Shown here one piece after another: positions 16,595 through 43,595 of a DNA stretch of 64,000 nt; the stretch's first letter is position 1; the number at the start of each line of letters is the position of its first letter. This stretch comes from Desulfosporosinus nitroreducens (GTDB lineage Bacteria > Bacillota > Desulfitobacteriia > Desulfitobacteriales > Desulfitobacteriaceae), in assembly GCF_023897015.1 (NCBI RefSeq), contig NZ_JAMHFY010000004.1, positions 124,001-188,000 on the forward strand, read 5' to 3'. The translations under genes and the position numbers were made by a program. The notes below the pieces were generated by a model, which was not told the origin of the DNA, did not search any database, and saw only the letters and a program-made list of their open reading frames with translations.

Positions 16595-16634
16595 CATAGC
16601 GCTTCGGTTAATTCGAACCCCTCTTCTTTTTCGA

Positions 16635-20012: not shown

Positions 20013-20017
20013 GCTAA

Positions 20018-20394: not shown

Positions 20395-22287
20395 TCACCT
20401 GCTTGATGTTACACCCTTTGCTTGACGCACTGCACGACCTCGGAGTAAGGATGACTGAAATAGGAGGCCTTCCCTCAGATATATCATTTGTTTAATAATA
20501 ATATCTGTTGCAATCTCGATAGAAAACTTACTCGTGTCAATCTCAATATCAGGATTTTCAGGTGCTTCATAAGGACTTGAAATCCCAGTGAAATTAGGTA
20601 TCTCCCCTGCTCGAGCTTTTTTGTAAAGCCCTTTTACATCTCTTTTTTCACATTCTTCAAGAGGTGTGCTGACATATATTTCAACGAACTCATTACCTAT
20701 TATTCTTTTCGCATTTTCTCTGTCATTTTTATATGGAGAAATAAAGGAAGTAATGACAATAATTCCTGCATCATTCATTAGATTAGCAACTTCGGCAATC
20801 CTTCTGATATTTTCAATTCTATCGGCCTCTTTAAAGCCTAGGTTTTTATTTAAACCGTGCCTAATATTGTCACCATCAAGCAGCATAGTATGTTTACCCA
20901 TCGCAACAAGTTTCTTCTCTACTTCATTAGCAAGAGTAGACTTCCCAGAACCTGAAAGGCCTGTGAACCAAAGAGTCAGCGGTTTTTGGCCCTTTTGTTC
21001 GGCACGAATTTCCCGAGTGATATCAGTATTCTGCCACACAACATTCGTTGATCTTCTCAACGAATGTTCGATAACCCCCAATGCAGAGGTTTTATTTGTA
21101 ATCTTGTCGATTAAACTAAGAGTCCCTAATGCCCTGTTATTCTTAAATTTATCAAACACAATATTTTCGGATAGAGCTATATCACATACTGCCAGTTCAT
21201 TCCTTAATAGACTGTTGACGCTAATCCTATTGCCTGTATTTGTGTCAATTATATATTTAAGTGCCATAACCGTAGCTGTTAGAACTTTGGCCCCTACCCT
21301 AATGTGGTAGCTTTTTCCCGCAACAAGCTCTGTGTCATCCAGCCAAAGGATTGTAGCGGTAAGCATATCGGCAATTTGAAGATTAACATCTTTAACTAAG
21401 ACACATCCTCTTGTAACATCCACATCTTTGTCAAGACAAATTGTAACTGCTTGCCCCATAAATGCCTGATCTTTTTTACTATCCGTATAAATACCTTTTA
21501 TTTTGGTCTTTTGATTGCTCGGAAGCGTAAGAATCTCATCACCAACAGAAATAGTCCCCGATTCTATCTGTCCCTGAAGTTCTCTGAACGAATCATTAAA
21601 TTTCAGTTTTGCCACCTTTTGAACTAACATGACAAAACTGTCACTGTTCGGGTTTGAGTTAGCGTCGATCTCTTCAAGATAAGGAAGTAGGGGCAATCCC
21701 TCATACCAGGGCATATGATTAGATGGCTTAATAATATTATCTCCCTGAGTTGCCGAAACCGGAATAACCACTACACTTTTTAAATTAAAATTAGCTGTAG
21801 AATTTAGTAAATCTTGTTTGATTTCTCTAAATCTCTTAAAATCATAATAAATGAAATCCATCTTGTTCACGACGAGAACAACGTGTTGAATCCCCATCAA
21901 GGTGCAAATTCTGAGATGCCTTTTAGTTTGCTCAGACACCCCTTGGCCCCCATCCACGACAATAACAGCTAAATCAGTAAAAAAAGCCCCCAGCGCTATT
22001 TCACTCATAGATTGCTCCCGACCAGGCGTATCGGCAACAATGAAAGACCTAGAAGCGGTTGCATAATAACGGCTAGTTACATTCTTAACAATTTCTTGCT
22101 CAGTTAGCAAATCGTTATAGGCAATAGAATCATTAATTTCTTCACCATGAATGCCAGTTTTGCTATCTGGTTCCCCGGCTTTATCATTAGAAGTTAATAA
22201 CTTTTCCTTACCAAACATACTTTCAATCAATGTCGATTTGCCGCCGTCAACTGATCCGCAGGTAACTACTTTAACTATAGTTTTCAT
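20395..22287 (-). CDS. cysNC: CysN-CysC fusion: GTPase-like domain plus APS kinase
   Basis: The 630-residue protein joins a CysN-type translation-factor GTPase (residues 1-410) to an APS kinase (from about 433). In the first half G1 is GSVDGGKST and G4 is NKMD, but switch I reads TEQEIVKNV where CysN has REQGITIDV, and switch II reads DTPGREQ instead of DTPGHEQ. The catalytic Thr and His are therefore missing. The kinase half is complete: GLSGSGKST, DGDNIRHGLN, SFISPY. It should convert APS to PAPS, the sulfate donor for the sulfotransferase upstream. No cysD lies in the window, so APS may come from another ATP sulfurylase (inference). The last 12 residues look non-family. Confidence 0.85.
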   Translation of the reverse strand: MKTIVKVVTCGSVDGGKSTLIESMFGKEKLLTSNDKAGEPDSKTGIHGEEINDSIAYNDLLTEQEIVKNVTSRYYATASRSFIVADTPGREQSMSEIALGAFFTDLAVIVVDGGQGVSEQTKRHLRICTLMGIQHVVLVVNKMDFIYYDFKRFREIKQDLLNSTANFNLKSVVVIPVSATQGDNIIKPSNHMPWYEGLPLLPYLEEIDANSNPNSDSFVMLVQKVAKLKFNDSFRELQGQIESGTISVGDEILTLPSNQKTKIKGIYTDSKKDQAFMGQAVTICLDKDVDVTRGCVLVKDVNLQIADMLTATILWLDDTELVAGKSYHIRVGAKVLTATVMALKYIIDTNTGNRISVNSLLRNELAVCDIALSENIVFDKFKNNRALGTLSLIDKITNKTSALGVIEHSLRRSTNVVWQNTDITREIRAEQKGQKPLTLWFTGLSGSGKSTLANEVEKKLVAMGKHTMLLDGDNIRHGLNKNLGFKEADRIENIRRIAEVANLMNDAGIIVITSFISPYKNDRENAKRIIGNEFVEIYVSTPLEECEKRDVKGLYKKARAGEIPNFTGISSPYEAPENPDIEIDTSKFSIEIATDIIIKQMIYLREGLLFQSSLLRGRAVRQAKGVTSSR

Positions 22288-22328
22288 TATGAAATACCTT
22301 CTTTTTCTTCTTACCTTTAGACAGCTTC

Positions 22329-23123
22329 TTATACCCAGATATTTTCTCTCCTATTAACTACATAAAACCCTTTTTCATTCAGAATGTTCTCCCGATTATA
22401 AAGCATCTCAGATCCATCCATTTGCCTGAAGATGCCCCCGGCTTCTTCAACGATGCACTGCATAGCAGCCGTATCCCATTCAGAAGTTAAACCAAAACGG
22501 TAATATACATCTGCTTTACCTGAGGCTACCATGCAGCCTTTTAGTGAGCTTCCTGCTGAAAGTATCTCTTTAATTTTATCCTTATTGTCCTCAATTAACC
22601 TAGCCTCCTTCTCAGAGGAATGAGATTTACTACCCACCATAATGAGATTCCTTGTTTTATCTGTCACCTTAAGCCTCGTATTCTCAGCTTTATATTCTCT
22701 ATAACCAATTTTTTCTAAATATGCACCTTGATCTTTGCTTGCATAATATAACTCTCCAGTCACAGGAACATAAATAACACCTATAATAACTTTATGCCTA
22801 TAGGCCAAAGCGATGTTGACAGTAAATTGACCATTCCTTTTGACGAATTCCTTAGTTCCATCCAGCGGATCAACAATAAAACAATAGTCAGTTGTTAATC
22901 TACTTTTATCATCTCGTGACTCTTCAGATAGGATTGAGTACTCTGAAAAATTGTCCTTAAGCCCTTTTGCAATAATTTCATTAGCATTTATATCTGCTAT
23001 TGTCAGAGGGGACTTGTCATTCTTCATCTCAACATCAAAATCTGTTGCGTAAACCTTTATAATTACTCTTCCAGCTTCCATTGCCAATGCTTTACATTTA
23101 TCTAATATTTGTTGTATTTTCAT
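22329..23123 (-). CDS. cysQ: 3'(2'),5'-bisphosphate nucleotidase
   Basis: The 264-residue protein is a lithium-sensitive inositol-monophosphatase-fold enzyme. The metal-binding motifs are present: ILSEES, VDPLDGTKEF and SEWDTAA. CysQ removes the 3'-phosphate from PAP left after sulfate transfer and so keeps the sulfotransferase running; it can also act on PAPS. ATG 23123 follows GAGAGG. It sits directly before cysNC in the same operon. Together with the sulfotransferase they form a PAPS make-use-recycle set. Confidence 0.9.
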   Translation of the reverse strand: MKIQQILDKCKALAMEAGRVIIKVYATDFDVEMKNDKSPLTIADINANEIIAKGLKDNFSEYSILSEESRDDKSRLTTDYCFIVDPLDGTKEFVKRNGQFTVNIALAYRHKVIIGVIYVPVTGELYYASKDQGAYLEKIGYREYKAENTRLKVTDKTRNLIMVGSKSHSSEKEARLIEDNKDKIKEILSAGSSLKGCMVASGKADVYYRFGLTSEWDTAAMQCIVEEAGGIFRQMDGSEMLYNRENILNEKGFYVVNRRENIWV

Positions 23124-23151
23124 TTGATCCTCTCTCTTCAATTTTATTAAA

Positions 23152-24519
23152 CTATTTAGTTCGTTCCACTAATTTGTTTTTTAAACATTTCGGAACTATA
23201 GCTGTGCTTATAATTCCGATGCGCCGATACACCTGTTGGACCAAAATTACATTCCAAACAAAAAACGTGGTTGTATTAGCTAATGCCGCCCCATTTATTC
23301 CCAATATTGGTATGAATGCAAAGCAAAAGGCAATATTAACTATTGCAGCTACAGTAACTCCAATAGCTGTATCTCTCTCATGTCCAGTCATATTAAGTAA
23401 GTAACCTACAGATCCAGAACCTGCATTGACTAACTGGCCCAAACAAAGAATAGAAAAAGCTACATACCCTCGTATATACTCCTCACCAAATACATAGCCA
23501 AGAATATAATGCCCAAAAGGGATAAAAATGCTAGCTACAAAAACTCCCGTTAGCAAAATTGCCCTTGAACTCCCTGTGACTGCACGTTGTAGACGCTCAT
23601 GATCACCTACAGTATAAAGTCTTGAAAAGTTAGGGGCGAGAGCCATATTCATAGCAGAAAGGGTAAAGGCCACTAAACTTGAACCTTGTACTACCACGCG
23701 AAAAACACCGACATCAGCTGCTGGTGCAAAGATCCCCAGCATAACAATGCCAGTTTGATTGTTAATAATTTGCATTCCAGCAAGAAAGCTTAAAGGTAAT
23801 ATGCTTCTTATCCATGTACGTTTATCGTATTCCGGCAAAATCTCCTTAGCCTTAACCGGAAGAAACCTAAGCAAAAACCAAGAACCGATAATAAAAGCTA
23901 AAAAAGCTGCTATAACCTGCATGGTTATAGCCATTGATGGCGATATGTTTATCTTTTTAAATAAGCCTATCAGAATAAATACTAGGAATACCCCTGGAAG
24001 AATAAGCTGGTCTGGAAGTTGTCCCCAAAAAACACGACGCAGACCACATAAAGTCGCGCCCCGAAGACTGCCCAACGCGATTAATGGAACCAGAAGTAAC
24101 GCCCATGCAAACGTAGTTGTCCGCACAACATCGTAATGTCCCATATACGCCCAAACGCCTGCAATAAACACAAAAACTAAAGAAATCAATATAACTACTT
24201 CATTTGAAAAACGCAGTATACCCCGCATTAAACCCCATTGTTCTTTAATTTGGTATGCTGCAATATTTCTTGTGAGTAAAGTAGGTAGTCCTATCTGGGC
24301 TGGAATAGCAATTATTGTGGTAAGGGCCAAGGCATAAGAGTATATTCCATAACCCTCCGCTCCCATGATTCGGGCCAGAATTATATTTATTGCCAGTGTT
24401 GCAATAGTGTAAAAAAGTTTTAGAGCAATACTAGCTATCGAGGCTCGTAATAAGTTAGCGAAGAGCCCTTCACCTCGAAATGAACGCATTTTCATCTTAA
24501 GCCAACAAATTAAAGTCAT
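23152..24519 (-). CDS. wzx: Polysaccharide flippase (Wzx/MATE-like)
   Basis: The 455-residue membrane protein has about 12-14 hydrophobic segments and the polysaccharide biosynthesis (PST) family layout. It opens with a cytoplasmic basic region, then FYTIATLAINIILARIMGAE with the GxEGYGxYxYALA line typical of Wzx proteins. It should flip lipid-linked, probably sulfated, repeat units across the membrane. AGAGGT precedes the ATG. It follows the sulfotransferase gene after a 360 bp gap and is 28 bp before cysQ. Confidence 0.85.
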   Translation of the reverse strand: MTLICWLKMKMRSFRGEGLFANLLRASIASIALKLFYTIATLAINIILARIMGAEGYGIYSYALALTTIIAIPAQIGLPTLLTRNIAAYQIKEQWGLMRGILRFSNEVVILISLVFVFIAGVWAYMGHYDVVRTTTFAWALLLVPLIALGSLRGATLCGLRRVFWGQLPDQLILPGVFLVFILIGLFKKINISPSMAITMQVIAAFLAFIIGSWFLLRFLPVKAKEILPEYDKRTWIRSILPLSFLAGMQIINNQTGIVMLGIFAPAADVGVFRVVVQGSSLVAFTLSAMNMALAPNFSRLYTVGDHERLQRAVTGSSRAILLTGVFVASIFIPFGHYILGYVFGEEYIRGYVAFSILCLGQLVNAGSGSVGYLLNMTGHERDTAIGVTVAAIVNIAFCFAFIPILGINGAALANTTTFFVWNVILVQQVYRRIGIISTAIVPKCLKNKLVERTK

Positions 24520-24883
24520 TATATTTACCTCTATTTTTTAGCTTTATATTTCAATGAAAGAACGGCTGGGGCCAACCAAGTTGCAGTGTAACCATTTTAT
24601 AGCATGTCTAGCTCTTCGCCCCCGGGGAAGTCCTACTTCACTCGCCAATAGGTTCAGTAAGATGTTGTCTTAAAGACTTTCGAAACTGTCGACCTTCCCG
24701 GTTTACTCAGTTCGAGGCTCGATTACTTTTAGGCCGCTATCTGACTATCTACGTGTCTACGCTTAACAGCTAGAATTACGGCTTTTAATACCTTCTGGCG
24801 TCGTGTGCTATTTTTTATAATTTTGTCATTTTACAAAGTAAAAATATTTCTATGCTTTAAATATTTTTTATTCCTTCCTACTA
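24520..24883. other. Gap within the operon, possible transposase tail
   Basis: A minus-strand frame ends TRRQKVLKAVILAVKRRHVD, then SQIAA and a stop near 24733, and looks like the end of a gene, perhaps a transposase, but I cannot name it. An isolated GTTCGAGGCTCGA word of the type seen at 55-64 kb lies near 24710. The remaining sequence looks like insertion debris. Confidence 0.4.
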
Positions 24884-25783
24884 TTAAACTAACCACATTT
24901 TCAAATCCTCGCCAATCAAATCCTGTAACTCTAATACATCTTCCCTATAAAAATCTATTAGATATCTACGGGTATTTTCATTTATTGGTATCTTTTTAAT
25001 ATTTTTTGAAATTAACATAGTTTTAATATTTTCTCTAAAATGTCTGGGTAAAAGAGGTTTAATTAAATATTTAAATAGATTTCTCTCTTTTAGAAATTTC
25101 TGTAATCTTACATTTTTAGGTATGCCTGAAACATTATAGTTAATTGACGTTTTTAAAGGAAATACTTTAATTTCTAGAAATTTCTCTATGTCATTAATAA
25201 TGATTTCTATATCTTTCTTCATGTAATCGTTTAATATAATTTTCACATTACTACGTCCAAATACATCTAAATATGATTTGACTTGTCTATAATACTTCCC
25301 AACCTGCTTATAATGCCATATCTGATGATATCCTAATTTTATTCTCTCATCTTCCGCATCTAAAGCATCCTCAAAACTAAGATTTTCTCTAAGATCTCTC
25401 CTTAAATGATTATAAGCAGAATATGCACGATCAATTGGATTTCTTAATATAATTATTATTTTTGCTGTTTTATTAAACACTTTTAAATCATGAGCTACAT
25501 CTGGGTAATATAAATATTCAATTGTCGCATCTCCAATAATTTTCTTCGTTCCTACATCATTAAATAATTTATAATATTCATATTCATTAATGATTCTTGA
25601 GCTATCGTAAATAGTATCACCTGGTCCGTTGTGTTTAATGATGTCATGCTTTAGATTAAAAAATCTAGGTTCTTTTTCTTTTGGAAAAAAAATTTCTGGG
25701 TGTTGACTTAAATAATTATATAAAGATGTTGATCCACTTTTTTGTGTGCCTACTATGAAGAGATTAGGTTTATTGATTGTCAT
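24884..25783 (-). CDS. PAPS-dependent carbohydrate sulfotransferase
   Basis: The 299-residue enzyme has the sulfotransferase fold. The 5'-phosphosulfate loop is FIVGTQKSGSTSLYNYLSQH near residues 9-28. The 3'-phosphate site is in IILRNPIDRAYSAYNH near 110-125, with the Arg and Ser that bind PAP. It is of the heparan/carbohydrate type and cytoplasmic, with no signal or membrane helix. It should place sulfate on the lipid-linked repeat before the flippase acts. GGAGGT precedes the ATG. Its neighbours wzy, wzx, cysQ and cysNC support this role. The low GC content (clearly below flanking genes) suggests acquisition by transfer. Confidence 0.9.
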   Translation of the reverse strand: MTINKPNLFIVGTQKSGSTSLYNYLSQHPEIFFPKEKEPRFFNLKHDIIKHNGPGDTIYDSSRIINEYEYYKLFNDVGTKKIIGDATIEYLYYPDVAHDLKVFNKTAKIIIILRNPIDRAYSAYNHLRRDLRENLSFEDALDAEDERIKLGYHQIWHYKQVGKYYRQVKSYLDVFGRSNVKIILNDYMKKDIEIIINDIEKFLEIKVFPLKTSINYNVSGIPKNVRLQKFLKERNLFKYLIKPLLPRHFRENIKTMLISKNIKKIPINENTRRYLIDFYREDVLELQDLIGEDLKMWLV

Positions 25784-25975
25784 AAATTACCTCCATTACG
25801 ATATTAAGTTTGGACTACCATTATTAGATTTATCATACGGAAACTGTTTAGCATTAGCTGTGAAATCGGCTTTTTTCTTAATAATCTTATATTTGTAACT
25901 TGTATTTTTTGAAGATCTTAGACAATTAAAATTATTTAATAACTTGGGGCATAGCTGTAATACTGAATTCATTTT

Positions 25976-27307
25976 CTAATGCCTTTTAATGCGAATGTTA
26001 TCTATCTCCATTGAAGCTAATGCAAAAAGCAACAAAATAAATGGAAAATACTTTATTCCGTTTGCAACCTGACAAATAAAAACACCTAAAACTGAAACTC
26101 CTAATGCAACCTGATATATTGAACGTCCTCTTTTTAAGAGTGGAATGCTTAAGCTAAGAATAATAGAGCAATAAACTAAGGTTCCCAGAAATCCCAATTC
26201 AAGTTGAGTTGTAATTAAATGGTTAAAGGTACTATAGACTCGTAAACTATATTCATTCATTAACAGTGACGGAACCATATTATATCCTACACCAAAAGGA
26301 TATTTCCAAACTAAATTATATCCTAATAACATATTGGTAAAACGTTCACTATTACTAGAATCAGCAAGATTTGCCGTCTTAAAACTCTCTATTAGTGATT
26401 CTAGAAAATCATTGCTTTGAAAAAGAAAAGAAAGCCTATCAATATTTAAAAATAGGATCAGTATTAGAAAGGAACATCCAATAAAAAATAAAGATGCTTT
26501 AAGTACTAATATCTTTCTGTTAATTAACTTATAAATACTAATTTTATTACATCTAATCATATAAACTAATATAACAAAAGTTAGAGTTACCAAATTAGCT
26601 GACCAAGAAATAATTGTCAAGAATAAACAAGCGATATAGACTACTTTTTTGAAAAAAGAAGGTTTGATATAATCCCAAAATAATAAAAAAGTTCCAACTA
26701 AAAAAGCGACATAATGCGATGTTTCTAGGAATAGCCCCTGCGCCCTATACGAAAATATCACCTTCAGGTTATCATTTATTAACCCCAGTTCATTTGCAGA
26801 TTGCCATGGAACTGGCATTGCAAACGCCGGTTGTGGAAAGTAATTGTAAAGTGAGAAATAATTTCCGCTCTTAAAAAGAAAATAACTCAATAATGAAAAG
26901 AATATATTTATTGAGAATCCAATCCAAACTCCATCTAATAGACTTTTTTTATTATCCCTTAATAAAAGATAACTAAAATACAAAATGATATTCAGAAAAT
27001 AACTTAGTTGTCCATTAAAAAATGTAGTAATATAATCTGAATCACTTTTAGAAACCAAAATCATTGGTATAAAAGATAAAAATACAAGTATACTAAATAT
27101 TAGTAAATACTTACTAAAAATTTTAAAAGTATTAACGATTACATTCGACTTTGTTAAAAAAACAAATAGAATAAAAATAGAAGAAAGGGTATAAATAATA
27201 TTAATATACGTATTTCCAACTTTAAATAGATAGATTATATTATTACATGATAAAACGCCAAATAAAAATGCAAACATATTCCATAATTTTTCTTTTTTAA
27301 TTTGCAA
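25976..27307 (-). CDS. wzy: O-antigen/EPS polymerase (Wzy-like)
   Basis: The 443-residue protein has about 11-12 hydrophobic segments. A large loop between residues 280 and 350 contains ANLADSSNSERFTNMLLGYN, which fits the WaaL/Wzy periplasmic loop. Wzy proteins have little sequence conservation; topology and gene context carry this call. It should join repeat units on the outer face of the membrane. TTG 27307 follows AAGGAG at good spacing. GC content is very low. It lies between a GT2 gene and the sulfotransferase gene. Confidence 0.8.
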   Translation of the reverse strand: MQIKKEKLWNMFAFLFGVLSCNNIIYLFKVGNTYINIIYTLSSIFILFVFLTKSNVIVNTFKIFSKYLLIFSILVFLSFIPMILVSKSDSDYITTFFNGQLSYFLNIILYFSYLLLRDNKKSLLDGVWIGFSINIFFSLLSYFLFKSGNYFSLYNYFPQPAFAMPVPWQSANELGLINDNLKVIFSYRAQGLFLETSHYVAFLVGTFLLFWDYIKPSFFKKVVYIACLFLTIISWSANLVTLTFVILVYMIRCNKISIYKLINRKILVLKASLFFIGCSFLILILFLNIDRLSFLFQSNDFLESLIESFKTANLADSSNSERFTNMLLGYNLVWKYPFGVGYNMVPSLLMNEYSLRVYSTFNHLITTQLELGFLGTLVYCSIILSLSIPLLKRGRSIYQVALGVSVLGVFICQVANGIKYFPFILLLFALASMEIDNIRIKRH

Positions 27308-27322
27308 AGATATGGTCTCCTT

Positions 27323-28288
27323 CTATCTAATATATTTACTATACAATTGCAACAAATATGGATAAAAGTATGGTATATTCTTTAAAAGAAAATATTCAAT
27401 AATTTGCACTTTAAGCAAATGCTTTTTAAATAATTTTATATTCGACCGTATTATTTCTGTATATAACTGTTTTTTAAACTTATTAGCCACATTGCTACGA
27501 GTCATCATCCTGAATAATTGTAATTGTATAGTAAATAAATTAGCCCGAGCTAAAGTACCTAGTTCAGGAATATTGAGATTTATGTGAACCAATATCTTTT
27601 CTGCAAAATAAATGGCATCAAACCACTTACTAGTAAATTCCATGTTCGTCGCAGAATCTATTCTGCCATGATATTTATATTTTGAAATGTCTATTGAACA
27701 AAGTCCGTTAGAAACACAAATTGACTCGAATATGAAAAACTTATCTTCATTCATCTTCTTTCCAACCTCGAACCTAACTTGTTGCACAATATTACGTTTA
27801 AAAATCTTAGTGCAAACACTAATGTTAATTTTTCCACTTTGTAGAAACGCCTCTATTGCTTCTTTACGGTTGTATTTATAAAATTTATTTGTTCCAAACT
27901 TCTCAACTGGTCTAGCATTTAATCTATAAGCGATAAGCCCGCACGAAGAAATGTCCACTCTATACTTTAAGGCATTATTAAGTAAGATCTCATACATATC
28001 TTCTGAGATTTCATCATCACAATCTACAAAACCGATATATTCTCCTGATGATATTTCAATACCAGCATTTCGAGCTGCTGAAACACCTGAGTTTTGTTGA
28101 TGTAATACTTTGATTCTTTTATCCTGTAGACTTAGTTCATCGCAAATTCTTGCAGATTCATCCGTAGACCCATCATCTATCAAAATAATTTCTATATCCT
28201 TTAACACCTGATTTTGGATTGATGAAAGACAATTTCCTAAATATTTAGCACCATTATACACAGGGACAATTACACTTATTATGGGCAT
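27323..28288 (-). CDS. Family 2 glycosyltransferase
   Basis: The 321-residue GT-A enzyme has ISVIVPVYNGAKYLGNCLSS at its start, the nucleotide-binding DDGSTD, and the metal-binding DxD-like line GFVDCDDEI near residue 95. The C-terminus is helical and basic and may touch the membrane. It adds one sugar to the growing lipid-linked unit. ATG 28288 follows GGAG. The gene overlaps the end of the preceding GT4 gene by 35 bp, so the two are likely translated together. Donor and acceptor sugars cannot be read from sequence. Confidence 0.88.
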   Translation of the reverse strand: MPIISVIVPVYNGAKYLGNCLSSIQNQVLKDIEIILIDDGSTDESARICDELSLQDKRIKVLHQQNSGVSAARNAGIEISSGEYIGFVDCDDEISEDMYEILLNNALKYRVDISSCGLIAYRLNARPVEKFGTNKFYKYNRKEAIEAFLQSGKINISVCTKIFKRNIVQQVRFEVGKKMNEDKFFIFESICVSNGLCSIDISKYKYHGRIDSATNMEFTSKWFDAIYFAEKILVHINLNIPELGTLARANLFTIQLQLFRMMTRSNVANKFKKQLYTEIIRSNIKLFKKHLLKVQIIEYFLLKNIPYFYPYLLQLYSKYIR

Positions 28289-29426
28289 TTGTTTCACTCC
28301 AATTTTTAAGCTCAAGATAGAATTTTTCCATTTTCATTGCTTCCATCTGAATGTCAAAACCTTTTTCGCGGATAACATTAGTCGTATCGCTTCGTTCATA
28401 TGAACTTACTATTTTTATAATAGCATCTGCCCAAACTTCTGGCTTTTCAGCAAGACTTACATAACACGTCTCATTAAGAAGCTTCACTTCTTTTGTTATA
28501 CTATCCGAAAATACACAAGGTAATCCTACAGCTTGGGCCTCAACACCAGTGACAGGAAGCCCTTCGTTCAATGAAGGAAAAACAAAAATATCCATTGCTT
28601 GTGTCAAATCTTTTACATCATGCCTAAAGCCTAAAAACCTTACCGCATCCCCTAAACCTAATTGATCTACTTTCTCTTTTATTAACTCCTCTAAACTGCC
28701 TTTTCCTACTAATAAAAGGATAGCAGAATCCTCTCTTTTCTTTATCTCTTTAAAAATATTTAGTAAGAGATCATGATTCTTTTGCTTTTCGAATCTTCCA
28801 ACATTGCCAATAACTAAATCACTGTGAACATTTAATTTTTTTCTCATTCTATCGCGAACAGATTGATCGAAATGAAATGCGTTTAAATCAATGGCATTGT
28901 GGATTATTGATACCTTTCCTTGTTTTGTAGCTCGCTTTCCAAACAACCACGTCCCCGCCTCTGTCGAACAAGCGAAGTAATAATTAGCAACTATTCTTAA
29001 TGGAATCTTTAGTAAATTACCTATCCCAATAACTATTGGTTGAGATGTTTGAAATCTTGTATTATGAGAATGTGCAATGCGAACCTTAATCCCATGTCTT
29101 TTAGCAATTGCCAATGGAAGTGCACTTTTACTTGAAGAGTGAGCATGTATGGCTACATAATCATTGTGTTCTTTAAAGAACTGATTCATTGCTTTTATGC
29201 ACTTATAGATGGATTTTGCTTTCATAGGTGGAACTTTATAGAAGTTCCCGCCCAAACGTATTATTTCATTTTCCAACTCATATTCTTTGCCATCATTCAA
29301 AAGTAAAAAATCAAACTGAATTACATCTCTATTCATATTTTTTATCAAACTCATAACCAGTGTCTGGATTCCTCCAGTGAGCATCCGGTCAATAAAGAAT
29401 AAAACCTTGGCCTTTTTAATCAACAT
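28254..29426 (-). CDS. Family 4 glycosyltransferase
   Basis: The 390-residue GT-B enzyme has an N-terminal acceptor domain (FFIDRMLTGGIQTLVMSLI) and a C-terminal nucleotide-sugar domain with VIGNVGRFEKQKNHDLL and the retaining-enzyme ExxxxxxxE line in PSLNEGLPVTGVEAQAVGLP. It resembles the second GT4 in this locus (31892-32998); they probably arose by duplication and now add different sugars. GGAG lies eight bases before the ATG. Confidence 0.88.
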   Translation of the reverse strand: MLIKKAKVLFFIDRMLTGGIQTLVMSLIKNMNRDVIQFDFLLLNDGKEYELENEIIRLGGNFYKVPPMKAKSIYKCIKAMNQFFKEHNDYVAIHAHSSSKSALPLAIAKRHGIKVRIAHSHNTRFQTSQPIVIGIGNLLKIPLRIVANYYFACSTEAGTWLFGKRATKQGKVSIIHNAIDLNAFHFDQSVRDRMRKKLNVHSDLVIGNVGRFEKQKNHDLLLNIFKEIKKREDSAILLLVGKGSLEELIKEKVDQLGLGDAVRFLGFRHDVKDLTQAMDIFVFPSLNEGLPVTGVEAQAVGLPCVFSDSITKEVKLLNETCYVSLAEKPEVWADAIIKIVSSYERSDTTNVIREKGFDIQMEAMKMEKFYLELKNWSETNAHNKCNCPCV

Positions 29427-29459
29427 TTCTTATCTCCTACTTACTGAAAATGTTGTAAA

Positions 29460-30671
29460 CTATTTTCCTCTAAATCCAACTATATCACCAATTGCTGCTC
29501 TAACAATACTATAGATTCCAAGTCGATAAGCAACAAATCTTCCAATAGATAATGTTTTAACTTTTACTGTATTTGGGAAATACTTGTTAAAAAGGTTAGT
29601 GCTTGACATAGTTACTGCATCGGCAAAGAACATTGCTCTCATAGGATTCATCTTGGTCGGTGTAACAAATTCTTTAACATCACCAAAGGCAGACTCAATA
29701 TTAATTTCTTCGTAATTTATATTGTCTTTAAATTTATAAAACATTTCGAAAGCCTTATTAGTTCTAGCAATTACCCGAGTAGTTCCTTTATCATCATCAA
29801 GCTTTTTACTATATCTTCCTACGGAAAAACAGTCCCAAATAGTAAAATCGCTTGTCCTATATCTTTTCTTAAAGTTACATTCATAGCAAGATGGTCTCAC
29901 GCAAATTCCTGAGAAGAATGCCCTTAGCCATACGTCAGATTCTATGCCTTTATGATAGTCTTTCTTTTTACAACCAGGTTTCATGTATAATGACATTGTA
30001 GAATATTTATAACCGTAACATTTATCTCTGAATCTTACTCTTTCAATACAATATTGGTTTTTTTGTTGTTGATACTCAATATACTTCCTCCACACCATTG
30101 GAGAAGGTACAGCACGACATACTAAATCAATAGTGACAAGATTAGCATACTTTTTTCTTAAGAAATGTTGAAGCCCCTCTATTTGGCATGGAGTCCCACT
30201 AAAACAAACCTCTCTCCCTAGGTCTAAAAATTCTTTAACTTTAGAAAAACACTTCCCTATCTCACTTTGCACATATTTGCTGCTTCTGAATTTTCCGAGG
30301 TCTTCTCGTTTTTCTACGTACATATGATATACAAAATAACCAGCCCCGAGTGTTGCTCCGAATACAACGCCTCCCTGATCGAGGGTATATTGGGCAATAG
30401 CCGAAAATGCCCCTCCAGCTGTACTTTCTTCTCGTATTTTATCGTCCTTAATGTTCACAATGTATGCTTTTTCTTTAACCGGTTTCTCTGGATCATTGTT
30501 TATTATTGGGCATACTTTTTCACAGATGTTACAGTTAATGCACTTTGTAACATTTACATCTGGATAAAGAAAGCCCTCATTATCAGGTTTCATCGATATA
30601 CAATTCTCGGGACAGACATTAGCACAGGAATGGCACCCGCAACACTTAGTTTTGTCAGTAATTTTAATCAT
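29460..30671 (-). CDS. FrhB-type ferredoxin protein of the polysaccharide locus
   Basis: The 403-residue protein starts with two 4Fe-4S clusters (CCGCHSCANVCPENC and CINCNICEKVCPI in the first 55 residues), followed by the coenzyme F420 hydrogenase/dehydrogenase beta-subunit domain (VVFGATLGAGYFVYHMYVE; VCFSGTPCQIEGLQHFL). Members in polysaccharide loci are often next to pyruvyl transferase genes, as here, where the ATG overlaps the previous stop (ATGA). It may carry out a flavin- or F420-linked redox step on a sugar. The exact reaction is unknown. Confidence 0.85.
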   Translation of the reverse strand: MIKITDKTKCCGCHSCANVCPENCISMKPDNEGFLYPDVNVTKCINCNICEKVCPIINNDPEKPVKEKAYIVNIKDDKIREESTAGGAFSAIAQYTLDQGGVVFGATLGAGYFVYHMYVEKREDLGKFRSSKYVQSEIGKCFSKVKEFLDLGREVCFSGTPCQIEGLQHFLRKKYANLVTIDLVCRAVPSPMVWRKYIEYQQQKNQYCIERVRFRDKCYGYKYSTMSLYMKPGCKKKDYHKGIESDVWLRAFFSGICVRPSCYECNFKKRYRTSDFTIWDCFSVGRYSKKLDDDKGTTRVIARTNKAFEMFYKFKDNINYEEINIESAFGDVKEFVTPTKMNPMRAMFFADAVTMSSTNLFNKYFPNTVKVKTLSIGRFVAYRLGIYSIVRAAIGDIVGFRGK

Positions 30672-31849
30672 TCTCTATTCTTCTCCGTCTCTAAAGCTCT
30701 AATTAAATAATTTATTGATTCTTTTCTAAATGAATCTAGCTTTTCCAAAACTGTCTTATAGTCAATTTCTTTCATAAGGCACTCATTTACATCTTGTTCA
30801 ACTGTTATGAAACGTTCATGTAAATCTAACACATTAAATAATGAATGCATCCGTGAATTTGTAGATAAAGAAGATCCCTCTTTAAATCTTCTATAGGTAA
30901 AAAATTTCTTTTGATTTAAAACAGAAAATACCGTTCCATGAAAAGAGTCCGTAAAAACATACTCAGCTTGTCTAATTAAATTAAAGAATTCTGCAGGTCC
31001 GATATCAAATGGCGCATAGTCCGGGAAATTGCAATCACTTTTTACATATTCGTCTAAATGCAATAAAGCAACAATTTTAAAGCCTGTAATTTCTTTAGCC
31101 TTTCTTACAAAATCGCGTTGTTCCGGATTATTTCCCAAGAAATAACAGAATATATATTTTTCCTTTATAATTCTTTTCGAAGGAAACTCCTCTGCCCATT
31201 GATCAGCTGTAAGCAAAAATGTAGGATCACAAACAACCTTTACCTCTCGATTAGCAATTTCCTTAACTATTTGCTGTCCGGCTTCTTCCCTTACTGAAAC
31301 ATGGTTAATTCGATTCAAAAATTCGTTCGCTTTTTCCCACTGCCTTTCTGGAATATTTGATACGCCAAAGCTGGTAGCATAAGACACCTTATTAACCTTA
31401 TCCGGTACGAAAGACAGTGTATAATAATCAGAATCTATATTTGAGGGTAACCATAGTTGATCACTCCCCACAAGAACAGACGAAAAATCTTTACAATAAT
31501 CCGTTAATTCCTGTCGTGATTTACAGGTTCTTGATAATTTAAATCTTGTATTCTTAAATTCAAGAAACTTCTCATCTCTTATAGCCATCTGTCTCGTAAG
31601 TTCTTTATTAATTTTTTTTACGATACTTTTTTTTATAAAACCCAATTTACCTTTAACAACATCAAAATTGTTTAATTGTAAAAGGTAATGCTTTATTTTT
31701 GCCTTTTGTAGCTCTTTATAAATGCCATCTATACATATAGTCTCGTGCTCATAACCCAACATATTGACTATTTTCTGAGTAGCGAAAGATTGTAGCATGC
31801 TACCATAATTTTTTTGAAAGTAACACGATACAATAGCAACTTTTTCCAT
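30668..31849 (-). CDS. Polysaccharide pyruvyl transferase
   Basis: The 393-residue protein shows the pyruvyl-transferase family pattern: VAIVSCYFQKNYGSMLQSFA at the start, SSVLVGSDQLW, VSVREEAG, and FTDSFHGTVFSVL towards the end. It uses phosphoenolpyruvate to form pyruvate ketals on sugar hydroxyls, adding negative charge. The fold is GT-B-like and cytoplasmic. AGGGGG precedes the start at slightly long spacing. It overlaps the FrhB-type gene by 4 bp. A polymer with both pyruvate and sulfate would be strongly anionic. Confidence 0.87.
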   Translation of the reverse strand: MEKVAIVSCYFQKNYGSMLQSFATQKIVNMLGYEHETICIDGIYKELQKAKIKHYLLQLNNFDVVKGKLGFIKKSIVKKINKELTRQMAIRDEKFLEFKNTRFKLSRTCKSRQELTDYCKDFSSVLVGSDQLWLPSNIDSDYYTLSFVPDKVNKVSYATSFGVSNIPERQWEKANEFLNRINHVSVREEAGQQIVKEIANREVKVVCDPTFLLTADQWAEEFPSKRIIKEKYIFCYFLGNNPEQRDFVRKAKEITGFKIVALLHLDEYVKSDCNFPDYAPFDIGPAEFFNLIRQAEYVFTDSFHGTVFSVLNQKKFFTYRRFKEGSSLSTNSRMHSLFNVLDLHERFITVEQDVNECLMKEIDYKTVLEKLDSFRKESINYLIRALETEKNRE

Positions 31850-31891
31850 TAAAATAGTTAACCCCCTAGATCTTATCTAGCTAAATATGAA

Positions 31892-32998
31892 TCAATATAA
31901 ATAATAATTACATAAATTTTCTGCAGCCTTTTTTATTTGAAATCCTGAATCAATAATCTTCTCATCAACCTTTTTTCTCTCAAATCCATCCTTAAAGTGT
32001 AGTACTTTATCTGCCCATTTATCTACAGATTCTTTCAAACTAACAAATTCCGTACTATCCAATATCTTTGTTTCTTCAGTAATTGTATCGGCATACACAC
32101 AGGGAAGCCCTGCAGATTGAGCCTCAACACCCACCACAGGTAATCCTTCATATAAAGAAGGAAGTAAAAATATATCCATTCCCTGCATCAGCTCGTGAAC
32201 ATTATTCTGTACTCCAAGAAAACAAACCGAATCCTTCAATCCCAGCATTCTCACTTTGTTTTCAATCTCTTCCTTTAGCTCGCCTTCTCCGGCGAGGAGC
32301 AATATCGCTGTTGAATCTATTTCATGGATTTTCTTAAAAATATCAACTAAAAAATTATGATTTTTCTGCTTCATAAACCGACCAACATGACCTATAACAA
32401 AGCTATCTTCAACATTCAGTTCTTTTCGAACCCTATTTCTAATCTCCTGATTAAATGAAAACTTTGAAATATCAATTGCATTAGGAATCAACTTAACATT
32501 TCCTTGATCGTAAAACCGTTTACCAAAAAGCCATTTCCCCGCTAAAGCAGAACATGCACAGAAATGGGTCGGGTATACCTTAGCTAAAGGACGTAAAATA
32601 TATTTAACTACCGTTCTCTTCAGCTCATTTTTGCTAGCAGTACTGTGGTTATGGGCAATACGAATTGGGACCCCTGCCATTTTTGCTGCACGAAGTGGGA
32701 ATATGCTCAATGCATTCATATGAACATGTACAATCTTATAATCATTTCTTTTAAAGAGCGAGATCAATTGCCTTTGATATTCTTTTATATCCGTATACGA
32801 TGGAACAAGATATATTTTCCCACCCATTTTCTCTATTTCGTCCCTGTAGGGTATCGTTGAACCTTCCTCAACGATAAAGTCAAACTGCACCTTCGTGCGG
32901 TTTATATGCCGGTAGTAATTCAACACCACCATTTCGATACCGCCTGAATTCATCTTAGATAATATTTGAGCTATTCTAAAGGGTTCATTGCTTTTCAT
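31892..32998 (-). CDS. Family 4 glycosyltransferase
   Basis: The 368-residue GT-B enzyme has an N-terminal IAQILSKMNSGGIEMVVLNYY, a C-terminal VIGHVGRFMKQKNHNFLV and the catalytic PSLYEGLPVVGVEAQSAGLP line. It is similar throughout to the GT4 at 28254. ATG 32998 follows AAAGG; an upstream ATG in the same frame overlaps that site. As the first glycosyltransferase after the initiating sugar transferase it may add the second sugar (inference from order). Confidence 0.88.
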   Translation of the reverse strand: MKSNEPFRIAQILSKMNSGGIEMVVLNYYRHINRTKVQFDFIVEEGSTIPYRDEIEKMGGKIYLVPSYTDIKEYQRQLISLFKRNDYKIVHVHMNALSIFPLRAAKMAGVPIRIAHNHSTASKNELKRTVVKYILRPLAKVYPTHFCACSALAGKWLFGKRFYDQGNVKLIPNAIDISKFSFNQEIRNRVRKELNVEDSFVIGHVGRFMKQKNHNFLVDIFKKIHEIDSTAILLLAGEGELKEEIENKVRMLGLKDSVCFLGVQNNVHELMQGMDIFLLPSLYEGLPVVGVEAQSAGLPCVYADTITEETKILDSTEFVSLKESVDKWADKVLHFKDGFERKKVDEKIIDSGFQIKKAAENLCNYYLY

Positions 32999-33061
32999 AA
33001 ATATACCTTTCATTTGGAGAAAATAAATGTTCTTTTATCAACCAGTTCCAGTTCTAAATAA

Positions 33062-33730
33062 TCATAACGCTCCTTTACGCTTAAACACACAATAAACGGT
33101 TCTAAAAAGTACGGCTATATCAAACGTCATCCCCTGCTTTTCTAGATAGCTTAATTCCACATCCACTCGTTCAGGATATTTTAAATCGCTCCGACCGGAA
33201 ACCTGCCAAACTCCTGTTATTCCTGGCTTCATATTTAAAAAGAGAAATCTCTTACTGCCATATTCATTCAACTCAGCTTGAACAATTGGACGCGGGCCCA
33301 CCAAAGACATATTTCCAATTAACACGTTCCAAAATTGTGGTAGTTCATCCAAGCTAGTTTTTCTTAAGAAAAACCCAATCTTCGTAATCCGTGGATCTTG
33401 TCCCTCAGGCAACTTATAGTTATTCGAAACATATTTGTTATAAATTACCGGGTTACCCCTTAGAACTTCTTCAGCATCCCTTCGCATCGAACGAAATTTA
33501 TATATGTGGAACGTTTCGCCGCCGAGTCCCAGTCTATCTTGAGAAAAAAATATCGGACGACCATCAGTAACGTAAATGATGAAAGATACAACAACAATAA
33601 TTGGAGAAAATAAAATAAGACCGACTAACGCCCCTATAATATCAATCATTCGTTTCCAGCCAGGAAATTTTCTCTCTTCAAATTGGACTTGTGCTTCTTT
33701 TTGCAAAACCTCTGAAGCACGCATATTCAT
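33062..33730 (-). CDS. Initiating undecaprenyl-phosphate sugar transferase
   Basis: The 222-residue membrane enzyme is of the WcaJ/RfbP/PglC family (PF02397). One membrane hairpin (residues 29-53) is followed by FHIYKFRSMRRDA, DPRITKIGFFLRKTSLDELP and QFWNVLIGNMSLVGPRP, then PGITGVWQVSGRS. These include the catalytic Asp-Glu and phosphate-binding Arg residues. It attaches the first sugar phosphate to undecaprenyl phosphate. ATG 33730 is used; a GTG three codons upstream is possible. It lacks the long N-terminal domain of the decayed homologue at 34269 and may have replaced it. Confidence 0.88.
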   Translation of the reverse strand: MNMRASEVLQKEAQVQFEERKFPGWKRMIDIIGALVGLILFSPIIVVVSFIIYVTDGRPIFFSQDRLGLGGETFHIYKFRSMRRDAEEVLRGNPVIYNKYVSNNYKLPEGQDPRITKIGFFLRKTSLDELPQFWNVLIGNMSLVGPRPIVQAELNEYGSKRFLFLNMKPGITGVWQVSGRSDLKYPERVDVELSYLEKQGMTFDIAVLFRTVYCVFKRKGAL

Positions 33731-34268
33731 AATTAACACCCACTCCTCTTCTTTCAATGACTAGGCGATCTTTGCCGAATCTAACGGCGACTCTGCCTAC
33801 TTCTCTATCTAAACAAAAACCATAATCACATTACGGTGTTATGTCACCTTGTTGATGTAAAAAGGACAATCAAAAATTAGAATTCCTTAACAATTACCAA
33901 CTCTATTTCTTAACTCTCCAAATCATATCGTAAATCATTATAAATAACCTAAATCAGGCGAAACCCGCACCAACAGAGGATTCCAGGTCTAATCTCTTTT
34001 CAATCTCCAGCACTTTGTCTAGATGCAAAATTACCAAGCCCAGTGCTACCAAGGCTTCTAGCGTCATAGAGATACTCTCTCTTTTCGCATCTCCACCGGC
34101 CAAAACACTATATATAGTATTAATTATGATAAAAAGCAGAAAAATAAACTATATGTAGTGTTTCTTTGCAATTTCCAGCACTCATATCCCCTTGTATACA
34201 TAAATAACTAAGGGAGTTCATCAATACTAGTTTTTCGTATGAATCTTCCCACGGTTGTCACTATTGGA
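33731..34268. other. Intergenic region between two sugar transferase genes
   Basis: No clear gene. A minus-strand frame at about 33957-34145 reads IYSVLAGGDAKRESISMTLE, then ALVALGLVILHLDKVLEIEK and ends GAGFA; it has no good start or ribosome binding site and matches nothing I know, but the residue pattern looks protein-like. The rest is leader for the downstream operon. Confidence 0.4.
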
Positions 34269-34865: not shown

Positions 34866-35471
34866 TGTCCCACTTCCCTTTTCCTTCTTCCCCGCGAAAT
34901 ATACTGATTTTTAACTCTGATACTAATTCTGAATATTCATTCACTCTTAGCCATAATTAGTAGCCTTCGCTAAGCCCACCACCTGAAAATAAGATCAATC
35001 TCATTGACAAATCCTCTCTTGTTCTCAGTTAAGATATAGCAAATTCAAGGATAAACTTAACAACACCCTTAAGTTCGGCACCCCAGGACTAAAGTCCTAA
35101 CATCCTAGGCCTACCACCCTAAGAAAGGACTACTTGTTTCCCAATTCGTTGTTAATATGGAAATTCCTGCAGACAAAATGCCAATTATTCCTACAATATT
35201 ACAGTAATTCTATGTATTTCTGGGAAATAAATGTCGGTAACTTGCATTAGCCATCTTATTACTCCTTTTATCGTCTAACATATTCTAAAATCTACCTTTC
35301 TTTCTTTTTCAACTTGTTCGTAAAGAATTTACTTGAGTTTAATTGATAGGTTGCAAAGTAATTTTACAGAACATGGGTAACATTTCTTCGTTCTTATGTT
35401 ACAATAATGTAAATTACCTAATATTTATCAAATTTACCATAGTAATTTTTTACAACAGAAGAGGTAGAACT
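34866..35471. other. Divergent control region, no gene
   Basis: This lies between the decayed minus-strand transferase and the plus-strand regulator. It holds a hairpin AGGACTAAAGTCCT (35086-35099) within a GC-richer segment 35070-35130 that could be a structured RNA. The remainder is AT-rich. I could not match it to a c-di-GMP riboswitch. Confidence 0.4.
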
Positions 35472-36173
35472 ATGCCTGATCTTAATGTTTTAATCGTTGA
35501 CGATGACCCAAGTGTCTTAATCCTGTTGGAATCAGCTCTGAACAAAAACGGCTATCAAGTTTATAAGGCAGAATCCGGTGAGGATGCGCTAAGGATTTTA
35601 GAATCCTTGGACATCGATTTGGTAATCTTGGACGTTATCTTACCGGGCATAGATGGCCTGACAACTCTTAAGGAAATACGGCATCATCCTAGCAATAGAA
35701 TGGTTCCTGTGCTTATGCTGACAAGCCGGGACAGCGAGATAGATAATGTCATTGGTCTGGAATTAGGGGCGGATGATTATATCTCTAAACCGATTCGCTA
35801 TCATGAGCTTATTGCACGCATAAAAGCCGTCCTGCGCAGAACTGACCAGAGTGCAGCCACCTCTTCCTCCAAGATTTCATTTCGGAGTCTGGAGATGGAC
35901 CTTGCTACTCGCAGTGTTACGCTGAACGGCCAAGAGCTACAACTTTCCTTCAAAGAATTTGAGCTCTTATGTCTTTTGGCTAAAAAGCCAGGCAGAGTGT
36001 TTACTCGCAGTGAGATTTTGGATGCTATCTGGTCTGAAGATGTCTTCTGGGAAACTCGCACAGTGGATGTCCATATTCGCAGAATTCGTAAAAAGATAGA
36101 GATAGCCGGGCTAAGTTCTTGTCTGATTGAGACTGTTAGAAATGTGGGGTATCGGCTTCCAAGCTCTTTTTAA
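35472..36173 (+). CDS. OmpR/PhoB-type response regulator
   Basis: The 233-residue protein has an N-terminal receiver domain (VLIVDDDPSV, phosphorylated Asp in LVILDVILPGIDG near residue 53, Thr/Ser switch in VLMLTSRD, Lys in YISKPIR) and a C-terminal winged helix (ELSFKEFELLCLLAKKPGRV; TVDVHIRRIRKKIE). ATG 35472 follows GAGGT. It converges with the giant hybrid kinase gene; their ends overlap by 38 bp. The kinase may phosphorylate it, and the natural target is the polysaccharide operon, but neither is shown by sequence. Confidence 0.88.
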   Translation: MPDLNVLIVDDDPSVLILLESALNKNGYQVYKAESGEDALRILESLDIDLVILDVILPGIDGLTTLKEIRHHPSNRMVPVLMLTSRDSEIDNVIGLELGADDYISKPIRYHELIARIKAVLRRTDQSAATSSSKISFRSLEMDLATRSVTLNGQELQLSFKEFELLCLLAKKPGRVFTRSEILDAIWSEDVFWETRTVDVHIRRIRKKIEIAGLSSCLIETVRNVGYRLPSSF

Positions 36174-42167: not shown

Positions 42168-42881
42168 TTAGCGATGTTTATGACCTTTATGTTTCTTCTT
42201 ATTATCGTCAGTTCCGTGATAATAGTAGTAGTAATAGTAGTCGCTGGTGTTCATGTCCGCTTTATTGAGAACTGCCCCGAGGATCTTAGCTCCAACTTTG
42301 TCTAACTGCTCCTTAGCAAGCTGGGCATACTCTTTGTTTACTTCACCTGAGGCCAAGACTAAGATAACTCCGTCGACTTCCTGGGCAAGAATGGCGGCAT
42401 CTGTCACCGCAATGATCGGAGGGGTATCGATAAGGACCACATCAAATTGCTCACTGACTTCCTCGATTAAACGCTTCATCCGTTGAGATCCGACGAGCTC
42501 AGCCGGATTGGGGGGAATGGGACCTCCTGTAAGGACCTTGACCCCAGGTATTTCGGTTTCTTTGATGAAATTGTGACTATCTTCTTGATTCTGAGCCAAA
42601 AAACTTGAAAGTCCCTCAAAATTACCTAGTTGAAACATTTTATGCTGAGTTGGATTACGCAAATCCGCATCGATAACCAGGACAGACTTGCCGGATTGAG
42701 CTATACTCACAGCCAGGTTGGCAGCCGTGGTCGATTTTCCTTCTCGCGGGCCTGAACTTGTGACCATAATTTTTTTGGTCTTAGAATCCACACTTGTAAA
42801 CTGCACATTCGTCCGGAGCGTCCTGTAAGCCTCAGAGATAGGTGATTTCGTTTCTTCGTGCGTAATTAGTGAAAATGCCAA
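42168..42881 (-). CDS. CpsD/CapB-type tyrosine kinase
   Basis: The 237-residue BY-kinase has Walker A GPREGKST (about residues 44-51), A' box VLVIDADLRNP and Walker B FDVVLIDTPP. It ends in seven consecutive tyrosines in a His/Lys-rich tail, the sites of trans-autophosphorylation. It works with the Wzz-type membrane protein encoded 15 bp upstream to set polymer length and export. As in other Firmicutes, adaptor and kinase are separate proteins. It is probably the second gene of the locus. Confidence 0.92.
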   Translation of the reverse strand: MAFSLITHEETKSPISEAYRTLRTNVQFTSVDSKTKKIMVTSSGPREGKSTTAANLAVSIAQSGKSVLVIDADLRNPTQHKMFQLGNFEGLSSFLAQNQEDSHNFIKETEIPGVKVLTGGPIPPNPAELVGSQRMKRLIEEVSEQFDVVLIDTPPIIAVTDAAILAQEVDGVILVLASGEVNKEYAQLAKEQLDKVGAKILGAVLNKADMNTSDYYYYYYYHGTDDNKKKHKGHKHR

Positions 42882-42896
42882 GTGAACCTTCTCCTC

Positions 42897-43595
42897 TTAC
42901 CCTTGTTTTCCTGCTTCAAAGTTTGGTATAACTCCTAATACCGGAATTCCTAAAACATTCTCCACATCACTTGAGGTCTTGATCGTATTATCTAAGTACT
43001 CTAACAAAAAGACCAGTCCGAAGGCAGCCATTAAGCCGACAACATAGGCAATCAAGATATTCAACTTTTTATTGGGTTTAACCGGATTATTGGGAACGAC
43101 TGCAGTATCTACGATACTGACACTGTCCACTTTTTTTATCTCAATGACCGCTTTGGAAAACTCAGCTGCCATCGAATTGGCGATGTCCGTGGCAAGTTCG
43201 GGGTTAGTATTCATGACTTGTATTTCTAGAATTTCCGTCGTCTTTACGGGGTTGATAGTGATAAGTTTGTCCAGCTCTGCAACACTCATTGTCAAATCCA
43301 AGTGATTAATGACACTTTGTTCGACGGTACGGCTCTGGGCGATAGTAGCGTAGGTTTTAGCAAGCTGTAGATTAGCTTGGAGGACACTATTGTCCAGCAT
43401 TTGTACGGCTGCTTGACCTGCCTCCGAAGCTTTCTTTCCCACGATCAATGTAGTGGAGGCTTGATATACGGGTTTTATAATAAAGAAACTAACGACCCCG
43501 CTGGTGAGAGCTGCGATGATCGGCAGTACCAGGACGATGATCCAACGCTTTTTTAGCATTTCCCAATACTGTCGTAATTCTATTTCTTCTTCCAT
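42897..43595 (-). CDS. Wzz-type chain-length determinant (kinase adaptor)
   Basis: The 232-residue protein has membrane helices at about 18-40 and 175-197 that frame an extracytoplasmic Wzz domain. A Pro-rich line VVPNNPVKPNKKLNILIAYV precedes the second helix. The C-terminal cytoplasmic tail should activate the tyrosine kinase. ATG 43595 follows GGAGGT. It is the first gene of the minus-strand locus, divergent from the SGNH protein gene, with a 261 bp shared control region. Confidence 0.9.
   Translation of the reverse strand: MEEEIELRQYWEMLKKRWIIVLVLPIIAALTSGVVSFFIIKPVYQASTTLIVGKKASEAGQAAVQMLDNSVLQANLQLAKTYATIAQSRTVEQSVINHLDLTMSVAELDKLITINPVKTTEILEIQVMNTNPELATDIANSMAAEFSKAVIEIKKVDSVSIVDTAVVPNNPVKPNKKLNILIAYVVGLMAAFGLVFLLEYLDNTIKTSSDVENVLGIPVLGVIPNFEAGKQG

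Follow-up and report, generated by a model that had tools for sequence, protein, structure and literature searches.

Where does a polysaccharide locus that carries its own sulfotransferase obtain its activated sulfate? We addressed this question for a gene run in a 64,000-nucleotide stretch of Desulfosporosinus nitroreducens DNA, analyzed at its full length and here called the window. The main run occupies 20395-33757 of the window on the minus strand and reads, from 33757 down to 20395: initiating transferase, family 4 glycosyltransferase, pyruvyl-transferase-family protein, FrhB-type protein, a second family 4 glycosyltransferase, family 2 glycosyltransferase, putative Wzy, sulfotransferase, Wzx, CysQ, and a CysN-CysC fusion (CysNC). 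The original prediction placed the locus in a Firmicute and credited it with a complete module for making 3'-phosphoadenosine 5'-phosphosulfate (PAPS). The host, a Desulfosporosinus, is indeed a Firmicute; the complete module was not borne out, as neither the locus nor the genome encodes CysD, the GTPase motifs of CysN are broken, and adenosine 5'-phosphosulfate (APS) would need to come from Sat. We consider it likely that the locus directs synthesis of a Wzx/Wzy-dependent sulfated polysaccharide for which the respiratory Sat supplies APS, the fusion serving only as a kinase and its CysN half being a leftover.

CysN-CysC, CysD, and the source of APS

Protein families were assigned with Pfam and NCBIfam profiles at their curated cut-offs. 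The features that bear on the making and use of PAPS are the following.

20395..22287, minus strand: CysN-CysC fusion, 630 aa; GTPase domain (about 1-200) eroded, APS-kinase half (about 412-605) intact
22288..22328, minus strand: cysQ-cysNC gap, 41 bp; in Petroclostridium (L032) the order there is cysQ-cysD-cysNC
22329..23141, minus strand: CysQ, 3'(2'),5'-bisphosphate nucleotidase, 270 aa (TIGR01331 238.3 bits, cut-off 228.8; PDB 3b8b, E 2.3e-49)
24884..25783, minus strand: PAPS-type sulfotransferase, 299 aa (PF00685 59.6 bits, PF13469 51.2 bits)

To judge from its motifs, the fusion is an open frame and yet no intact sulfate-activating enzyme. In all 28 relatives whose sequence includes the N-terminus, the motifs GSVDDGKS, GITIDVAY, and PGHE are invariant, and all three are changed in the window: GSVDDGKS has become GSVDGGKS, EREQGITIDVAYRYF has become EQE--IVKNVTSRYY with a two-residue deletion, and PGHE has become PGRE. 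The switch-I Thr and the His of PGHE are absent; going by the biochemistry of translational GTPases, the Thr would coordinate magnesium in switch I and the His would be catalytic. The APS-kinase half retains its P-loop (GLSGSGKST) and DGDN and is under purifying selection. The fusion scores 356.8 bits with TIGR02034 (cut-off 336.1) and 251 bits with apsK (cut-off 138.7), but only 672.9 with the bifunctional model NF004035, whose cut-off is 715. Because TIGR02034 is still above its cut-off, automatic annotation can credit such a genome with a second sulfate-activation route that is probably absent.

In 28 of 31 relatives from named genomes, CysD lies next to CysNC; the exceptions are two cuts at contig edges and Desulfosporosinus sp. 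HMP52 (G019), which bears the same genus label as the host. In the host genome we found no match to TIGR02039, a model that was positive in 10 of 14 control genomes, and none to the wider CysD family PF01507, which was positive in all 14. A tblastn search for a cysD remnant found none in the window or in the tested stretches of HMP52 and two further genus members, G009 and G017, whereas the positive control matched.

The single Sat of the host genome is encoded on a contig other than that of the locus. On contig C6, HdrA-like genes are followed by sat-aprB-aprA, with 513.2 bits for sat (cut-off 387), 185.8 for aprB (cut-off 135.65), and 888.4 for aprA (cut-off 641.75); qmo was named from gene order and from HdrA-like matches that lie below the cut-offs of those models. 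As read from sat-aprBA, the host is a dissimilatory sulfate reducer. The genome holds one APS kinase (PF01583), namely the CysNC of this locus. We infer that the fusion works as an APS kinase alone, with the respiratory Sat supplying APS. The locus thus seems to draw its activated sulfate from respiration, because the CysN half has decayed; a GTP-driven CysD/CysN sulfurylase would be unneeded in a cell with Sat, and therefore cysD would have been lost and the GTPase domain left to decay.

In the mechanism that we propose, APS would be made by Sat, whose gene lies with aprBA on another contig, and phosphorylated to PAPS by the C-terminal half of CysN-CysC. With this PAPS, the soluble sulfotransferase would then sulfate a sugar of the repeat unit while the unit is linked to undecaprenol on the cytoplasmic side, probably before Wzx flips that unit across the membrane for polymerization by Wzy with Wzz/CpsD, and CysQ would destroy the by-product 3'-phosphoadenosine 5'-phosphate (PAP). 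What is new here is that the PAPS supply of a sulfated-polysaccharide locus appears to depend on a respiratory Sat. If this is true, a sulfate-breathing, spore-forming Gram-positive bacterium diverts respiratory APS into its own coat, and sulfated surface polymers extend to a group with no proven case in the literature searched. One study (PMC4373884) describes a comparable arrangement in Mycobacterium tuberculosis, where a CysN-CysC fusion likewise provides PAPS for sulfotransferases and the CysC domain is active alone; unlike the window, that complex includes CysD together with a CysN GTPase that drives it.

Erosion of CysN among relatives

Four of 29 genus genomes (the host, G009, HMP52, and G017) hold this CysNC orthologue at an identity of at least 80%; all four carry Sat and none has a CysD match, including G009 and G017, which are assembled in 3 contigs and 1 contig, respectively. 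CysN is full length but eroded in the window and in G009, which has the same two-residue deletion and whose erosion is further along (GPVNSGKS, DAPGDEQ). It is further deleted in the other two: HMP52 has lost the GTPase domain but retains most of domains II-III, where 154 of 205 positions align and an internal deletion is present, and G017 has lost all of CysN and retains only the kinase. These deletions are events beyond the one shared by the window and G009. The kinases of the genus orthologues are 87-94% identical to that of the window, and in a kinase-domain tree the window, HMP52, and G009 join (99/93) near the CysD-bearing Petroclostridium. This graded series, from a broken GTPase in an open frame through a deleted GTPase to a kinase alone, indicates how a fusion enzyme may shed one of its halves when the product of that half comes from another enzyme. 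No report of such CysN decay turned up in the literature searched, which was partial and included few subscription journals.

The wider phylum shows a similar division. At E <= 1e-70, CysNC has matches in 16 of 398 phylum genomes, and in G159 the match covers only the kinase. Of the 15 that remain, 13 combine unbroken motifs with a CysD located no more than 1.5 kb away. Twelve of these 13 do not appear among the Sat-positive genomes, and the thirteenth, G416, carries only a 71-codon fragment of Sat that contains a stop. In the window and G009, which complete the 15, Sat is full, there is no CysD, and the motifs are broken. This comparison of Sat with CysN takes two draws of 398 genomes as the same set, for which mostly only the matching genomes are listed.

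In the family, 21 of 45 genomes have Sat and 10 have CysD, with only one (G002) having both (Fisher p 0.012, kinship ignored). The CysD count includes only best matches at E <= 1e-14, and 2 of the 10 pass the curated cut-off. Eight weaker CysD matches (E 3.5e-5 to 5.4e-4) were dropped as other proteins, their frames being of 566-810 codons in seven cases and 421 in one; as seven of the eight lie in Sat-bearing genomes, counting them abolishes the exclusion. The mutual exclusion of Sat and CysD is thus weak support for the role that we assign to Sat. In the Sat-bearing G002, the CysD match (L086:3816-4298) contains two stops and lies beside an APS kinase and genes that by eye are AprA/AprB-like; it seems to be another CysD decaying where Sat is present.

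We compared rates between the window and G009 (dN/dS by Nei-Gojobori), with 43 intact pairs of similar divergence as controls. The GTPase domain gave 0.30 (bootstrap 0.20-0.47), compared with a median of 0.071 and a maximum of 0.143 in the intact pairs. Domains II-III gave 0.23 (upper bound 0.37; intact median 0.110, maximum 0.295) and the APS-kinase half 0.076 (intact median 0.045, maximum 0.135). Only the GTPase domain exceeds the intact range, and the rate evidence is therefore limited to that domain.

Several points count against the interpretation of CysN as a leftover beside a Sat-fed kinase. In the rate comparison, domains II-III fall within the intact range, 12 of the 43 control pairs reaching at least 0.228; 40 of the 43 pairs come from one clade; and synonymous divergence is uneven along the gene (0.29 to 0.80), so that recombination may blur the result. 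The eroded CysN half retains the P-loop GKS and NKMD which, together with a dN/dS well below 1, means that it is not a plain pseudogene domain. Since the window and G009 share one event, genome counts overstate independence. Elsewhere in its genome, G009 has another APS kinase match (58%), which stands alone, and the frame of its CysQ (L066:11955-12698) stops early with a shifted tail and looks frameshifted. Another genus member, G033 (92% complete), has neither a CysD nor a Sat match; its locus L073 (G033:C34:28000-40466) carries a distant CysNC at 9571-11442 with a broken P-loop (GPIDYGENG) and, about 9 kb from it, a sulfotransferase frame at 6-899. With no Sat found in that genome, Sat is no explanation for that CysNC, which is possibly an independent case of CysN erosion. 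The host draft assembly carries 4.61% estimated contamination. Finally, a WbaP-like transferase within the locus and an epimerase beside it (both listed below) are decayed, which suggests that the locus has been remodeled and that parts of it could be inactive.

The constraint on CysN could also mean that this half was kept for a new job: without hydrolyzing GTP, it might bind GTP or act as a docking platform, and so control the kinase or recruit it to Sat. We regard this as unlikely. The retained GKS and NKMD are in its favor, as are the approximately 400 codons that have stayed open in two species, at dN/dS values of 0.30 and 0.23, since the shared deletion; some of this constraint, however, may reflect folding and read-through to the kinase. 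Moreover, the kinase persists, with a flippase and a sulfotransferase nearby, both in HMP52, where the GTPase domain and some of the remaining CysN are missing, and in G017, where no CysN is left, so the CysN half is dispensable in these genomes. A more specific variant, in which the fusion has become a PAPS synthase dependent on Sat and the GTPase-dead CysN half docks on Sat or senses GTP, such that APS is channeled from AprBA to the coat and sulfation is tied to the rate of respiration, appears quite unlikely.

The sulfotransferase and its target

The sulfotransferase aligns over its full length with PDB 3rnl (E 2.4e-68), a member of the same enzyme family that is labeled only 'Sulfotransferase', and shows weaker similarity to heparan sulfate N- and 3-O-sulfotransferases. 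Its motifs GTQKSGSTS, LRNPIDRAYSAY, and KExxFF align with those of 3rnl and are presumably the PAPS-binding loops. A crude hydropathy scan, which also marks one segment each in CysNC and CpsD, detected no hydrophobic segment in the sulfotransferase; the enzyme should therefore act on the PAPS side of the membrane. The integration of a sulfotransferase and a PAP phosphatase into a Wzx/Wzy locus, as originally proposed, was supported: beside the sole APS kinase, the locus holds the sole PF00685/PF13469 sulfotransferase of the host genome. Given this single sulfotransferase and the lack of a CysH-type protein (no PF01507), no other use of PAPS is visible among the families searched.

The sulfotransferase was considered as a common trait of the phylum, and this was rejected, since only one other of the 398 genomes (G409) has a relative at E <= 1e-30. 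In G409 (L087:8372-11124), as in the window, a related sulfotransferase (31% identity) has a Sat-type PAPS supply, but the source there is an adjoining APS kinase-Sat fusion within the locus instead of a respiratory Sat encoded apart from it. The loci of G009, HMP52, and G017 each have a sulfotransferase near a flippase, with best matches to Sulfotransfer_3 (G009 and HMP52) or Sulfotransfer_2 (G017), and none of the three matched the sulfotransferase of the window in BLASTP at E <= 1e-3. The loci L016, L018-L024, and L029, from Lachnospiraceae and other Clostridiales, resemble the window in having the same CysNC family beside a sulfotransferase; they differ in keeping CysD and intact GTPase motifs, their sulfotransferase is more distant, and they form one clade.

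Could the sulfotransferase instead act on a lipid, a protein, or a small molecule, its place in a polysaccharide locus being accidental? The substrates of PF00685 enzymes are unreadable from sequence, and in a genus member two APS kinase-sulfotransferase pairs are found in an apparent peptide cluster (L088). However, the gene stands between wzy and wzx on one strand, a sulfotransferase is found near the flippase in all three other genus loci with this kinase, and the weaker relatives include heparan sulfate sulfotransferases. We therefore find a target outside the polymer improbable, and sulfation of the polymer made by this locus is well supported but unproven.

Among sulfated polymers of the Wzx/Wzy type, the case already worked out is synechan, the product of the xss cluster of Synechocystis 6803 (PMC8205485). 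There too, Wzx, Wzy, a co-polymerase, glycosyltransferases, and sulfotransferases are clustered; unlike xss, for which the available parts of that paper name no PAPS-supply genes, the locus described here has its own APS kinase and CysQ and belongs to a Gram-positive anaerobe. The wps-1 cluster of Actinoplanes missouriensis, proposed in 2026 to make a sulfated polymer, is also of Wzx/Wzy type and Gram-positive, and both products are chemically unproven; it differs in belonging to an actinomycete and in having two sulfotransferases, and the main text of the study nowhere mentions PAPS (PMC13390465). Pontiella is described in a further study as making sulfated exopolymers (PMC7356697). In the partial literature on Desulfosporosinus, Firmicute, and Gram-positive capsules and Lachnospiraceae, no proven sulfated polymer turned up, and that on Anaerosacchariphilus polymeriproducens, which has a CysNC match, concerned mouse colitis only. 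A sulfated capsule of Vibrio has reportedly been described together with its gene cluster (PMC11641403). As to the claim that such polymers are rare in Gram-positive bacteria, the literature searched gave no chemically proven case in Firmicutes, but at least 14 of the 31 named CysNC loci hold a sulfotransferase-like frame; with 12 of the 14 in one kinase clade, this minimum comes from few lineages.

The peptide-like cluster L088 (G032:C121:16000-35900) contains, at 987-18548, two sets of genes for an APS kinase, a PF00685 sulfotransferase, NTP_transf_5, an HPr-kinase-like protein, and an ABC transporter, with an asparagine-synthase-like gene between both sets; the family calls were made on one set. 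It resembles a lasso-peptide cluster equipped with an APS kinase of its own. Searches of this genus member (G032) detected no Sat and no CysD.

The polymer pathway and its surroundings

The remaining features of the locus and its neighborhood, with hydrophobic segments taken from the crude scan, are the following.

19331-20010: broken epimerase, truncated and frame-broken, just downstream of the main run
23152..24519, minus strand: Wzx-type flippase, 455 aa (PF01943 52.7 bits; 9 hydrophobic segments)
25976..27307, minus strand: putative Wzy polymerase, 443 aa (8 hydrophobic segments and position)
27323..28315, minus strand: glycosyltransferase family 2 (PF00535 127.1 bits)
28254..29426, minus strand: glycosyltransferase family 4 (PF00534 104.5 bits)
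29460..30671, minus strand: FrhB-type protein with ferredoxin domain (PF04432 82.2 bits, Fer4)
30668..31849, minus strand: PS_pyruv_trans family protein (PF04230 117.4 bits, cut-off 25.3)
31892..33013, minus strand: glycosyltransferase family 4 (PF00534 92.8 bits)
33062..33757, minus strand: initiating sugar-phosphate transferase, short form, intact, 231 aa (PF02397 209.3 bits)
about 33760-34865, minus strand: decayed second initiating transferase, named WbaP-like by eye (34551-34865 open, the rest in broken frames)
35343-36173, plus strand: response regulator, divergent
36136-41889: hybrid sensor kinase, 1917 aa (kinase, AAA, GAF, histidine kinase, receiver, and Hpt domains)
42168..42881, minus strand: CpsD-type tyrosine kinase (ParA/AAA_31 ATPase matches; tyrosine-rich YYYYYYY tail)
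42897..43607, minus strand: Wzz-type chain-length regulator (PF02706 57.5 bits)

The assignment to a Wzx/Wzy-type pathway follows from an initiating transferase, a flippase, and glycosyltransferases that score above their cut-offs, together with Wzz and a tyrosine kinase. Chance or mis-called domains were ruled out by scores above the curated cut-offs, except for Wzy, which matched nothing in Pfam or NCBIfam at E <= 0.001 and sits in the stretch of lowest G+C (27.8% for 26001-28000). Intergenic gaps in the main run range from -62 to 48 bp, save around the sulfotransferase, which is preceded by 192 bp and followed by 364 bp. Wzz and CpsD (42168-43607, minus strand) are set apart from the main run by the hybrid sensor kinase, the divergent response regulator, and the decayed sugar-transferase gene. 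All the gene families named beforehand were recovered on the minus strand by Pfam or NCBIfam, apart from Wzy, recognized by segments and position only, and Wzz/CpsD are not adjacent to the run. The 1917-aa sensor kinase may control the locus, given its place within the polysaccharide region.

Pyruvylation of the polymer, also suggested at the outset, is possible, though less well supported than sulfation. The protein concerned matches PF04230, which is a broad family, and it stands far outside the CsaB subfamily (TIGR03609 23.7 bits vs a cut-off of 213.1); it matched no PDB sequence at E <= 0.1.

The 104-aa open part of the decayed WbaP-like transferase has no Pfam match; by eye, the gene looks like the intact L067:10250-11677. 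This broken second initiating transferase, the broken epimerase, and the eroded CysN would suit a locus that is a decaying relic from which no polymer is made now. We think this very unlikely, because each step of the polymer pathway has an open frame of the expected length and the kinase is strongly constrained. Least credible of all is a working CysD/CysN pathway whose CysD is merely missing from the assembly: the 5.46-Mb host genome is a draft in 95 contigs and TIGR02034 is still above its cut-off, but completeness is estimated at 99.99%, only 41 bp remain where Petroclostridium has cysD, G009 and G017 lack CysD in assemblies of 3 contigs and 1 contig, and the switch-I Thr and the His of PGHE are gone.

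A plasmid origin was considered and rejected, as 20395-25783 of the window had no near match among 72,556 plasmid records. No repeats of at least 40 bp were found at 13000-35500 of the window. A short repeated stretch, which encodes SWCQA on one strand, occurs near 14962, near 16529, and at 19978-20060, outside the main genes.

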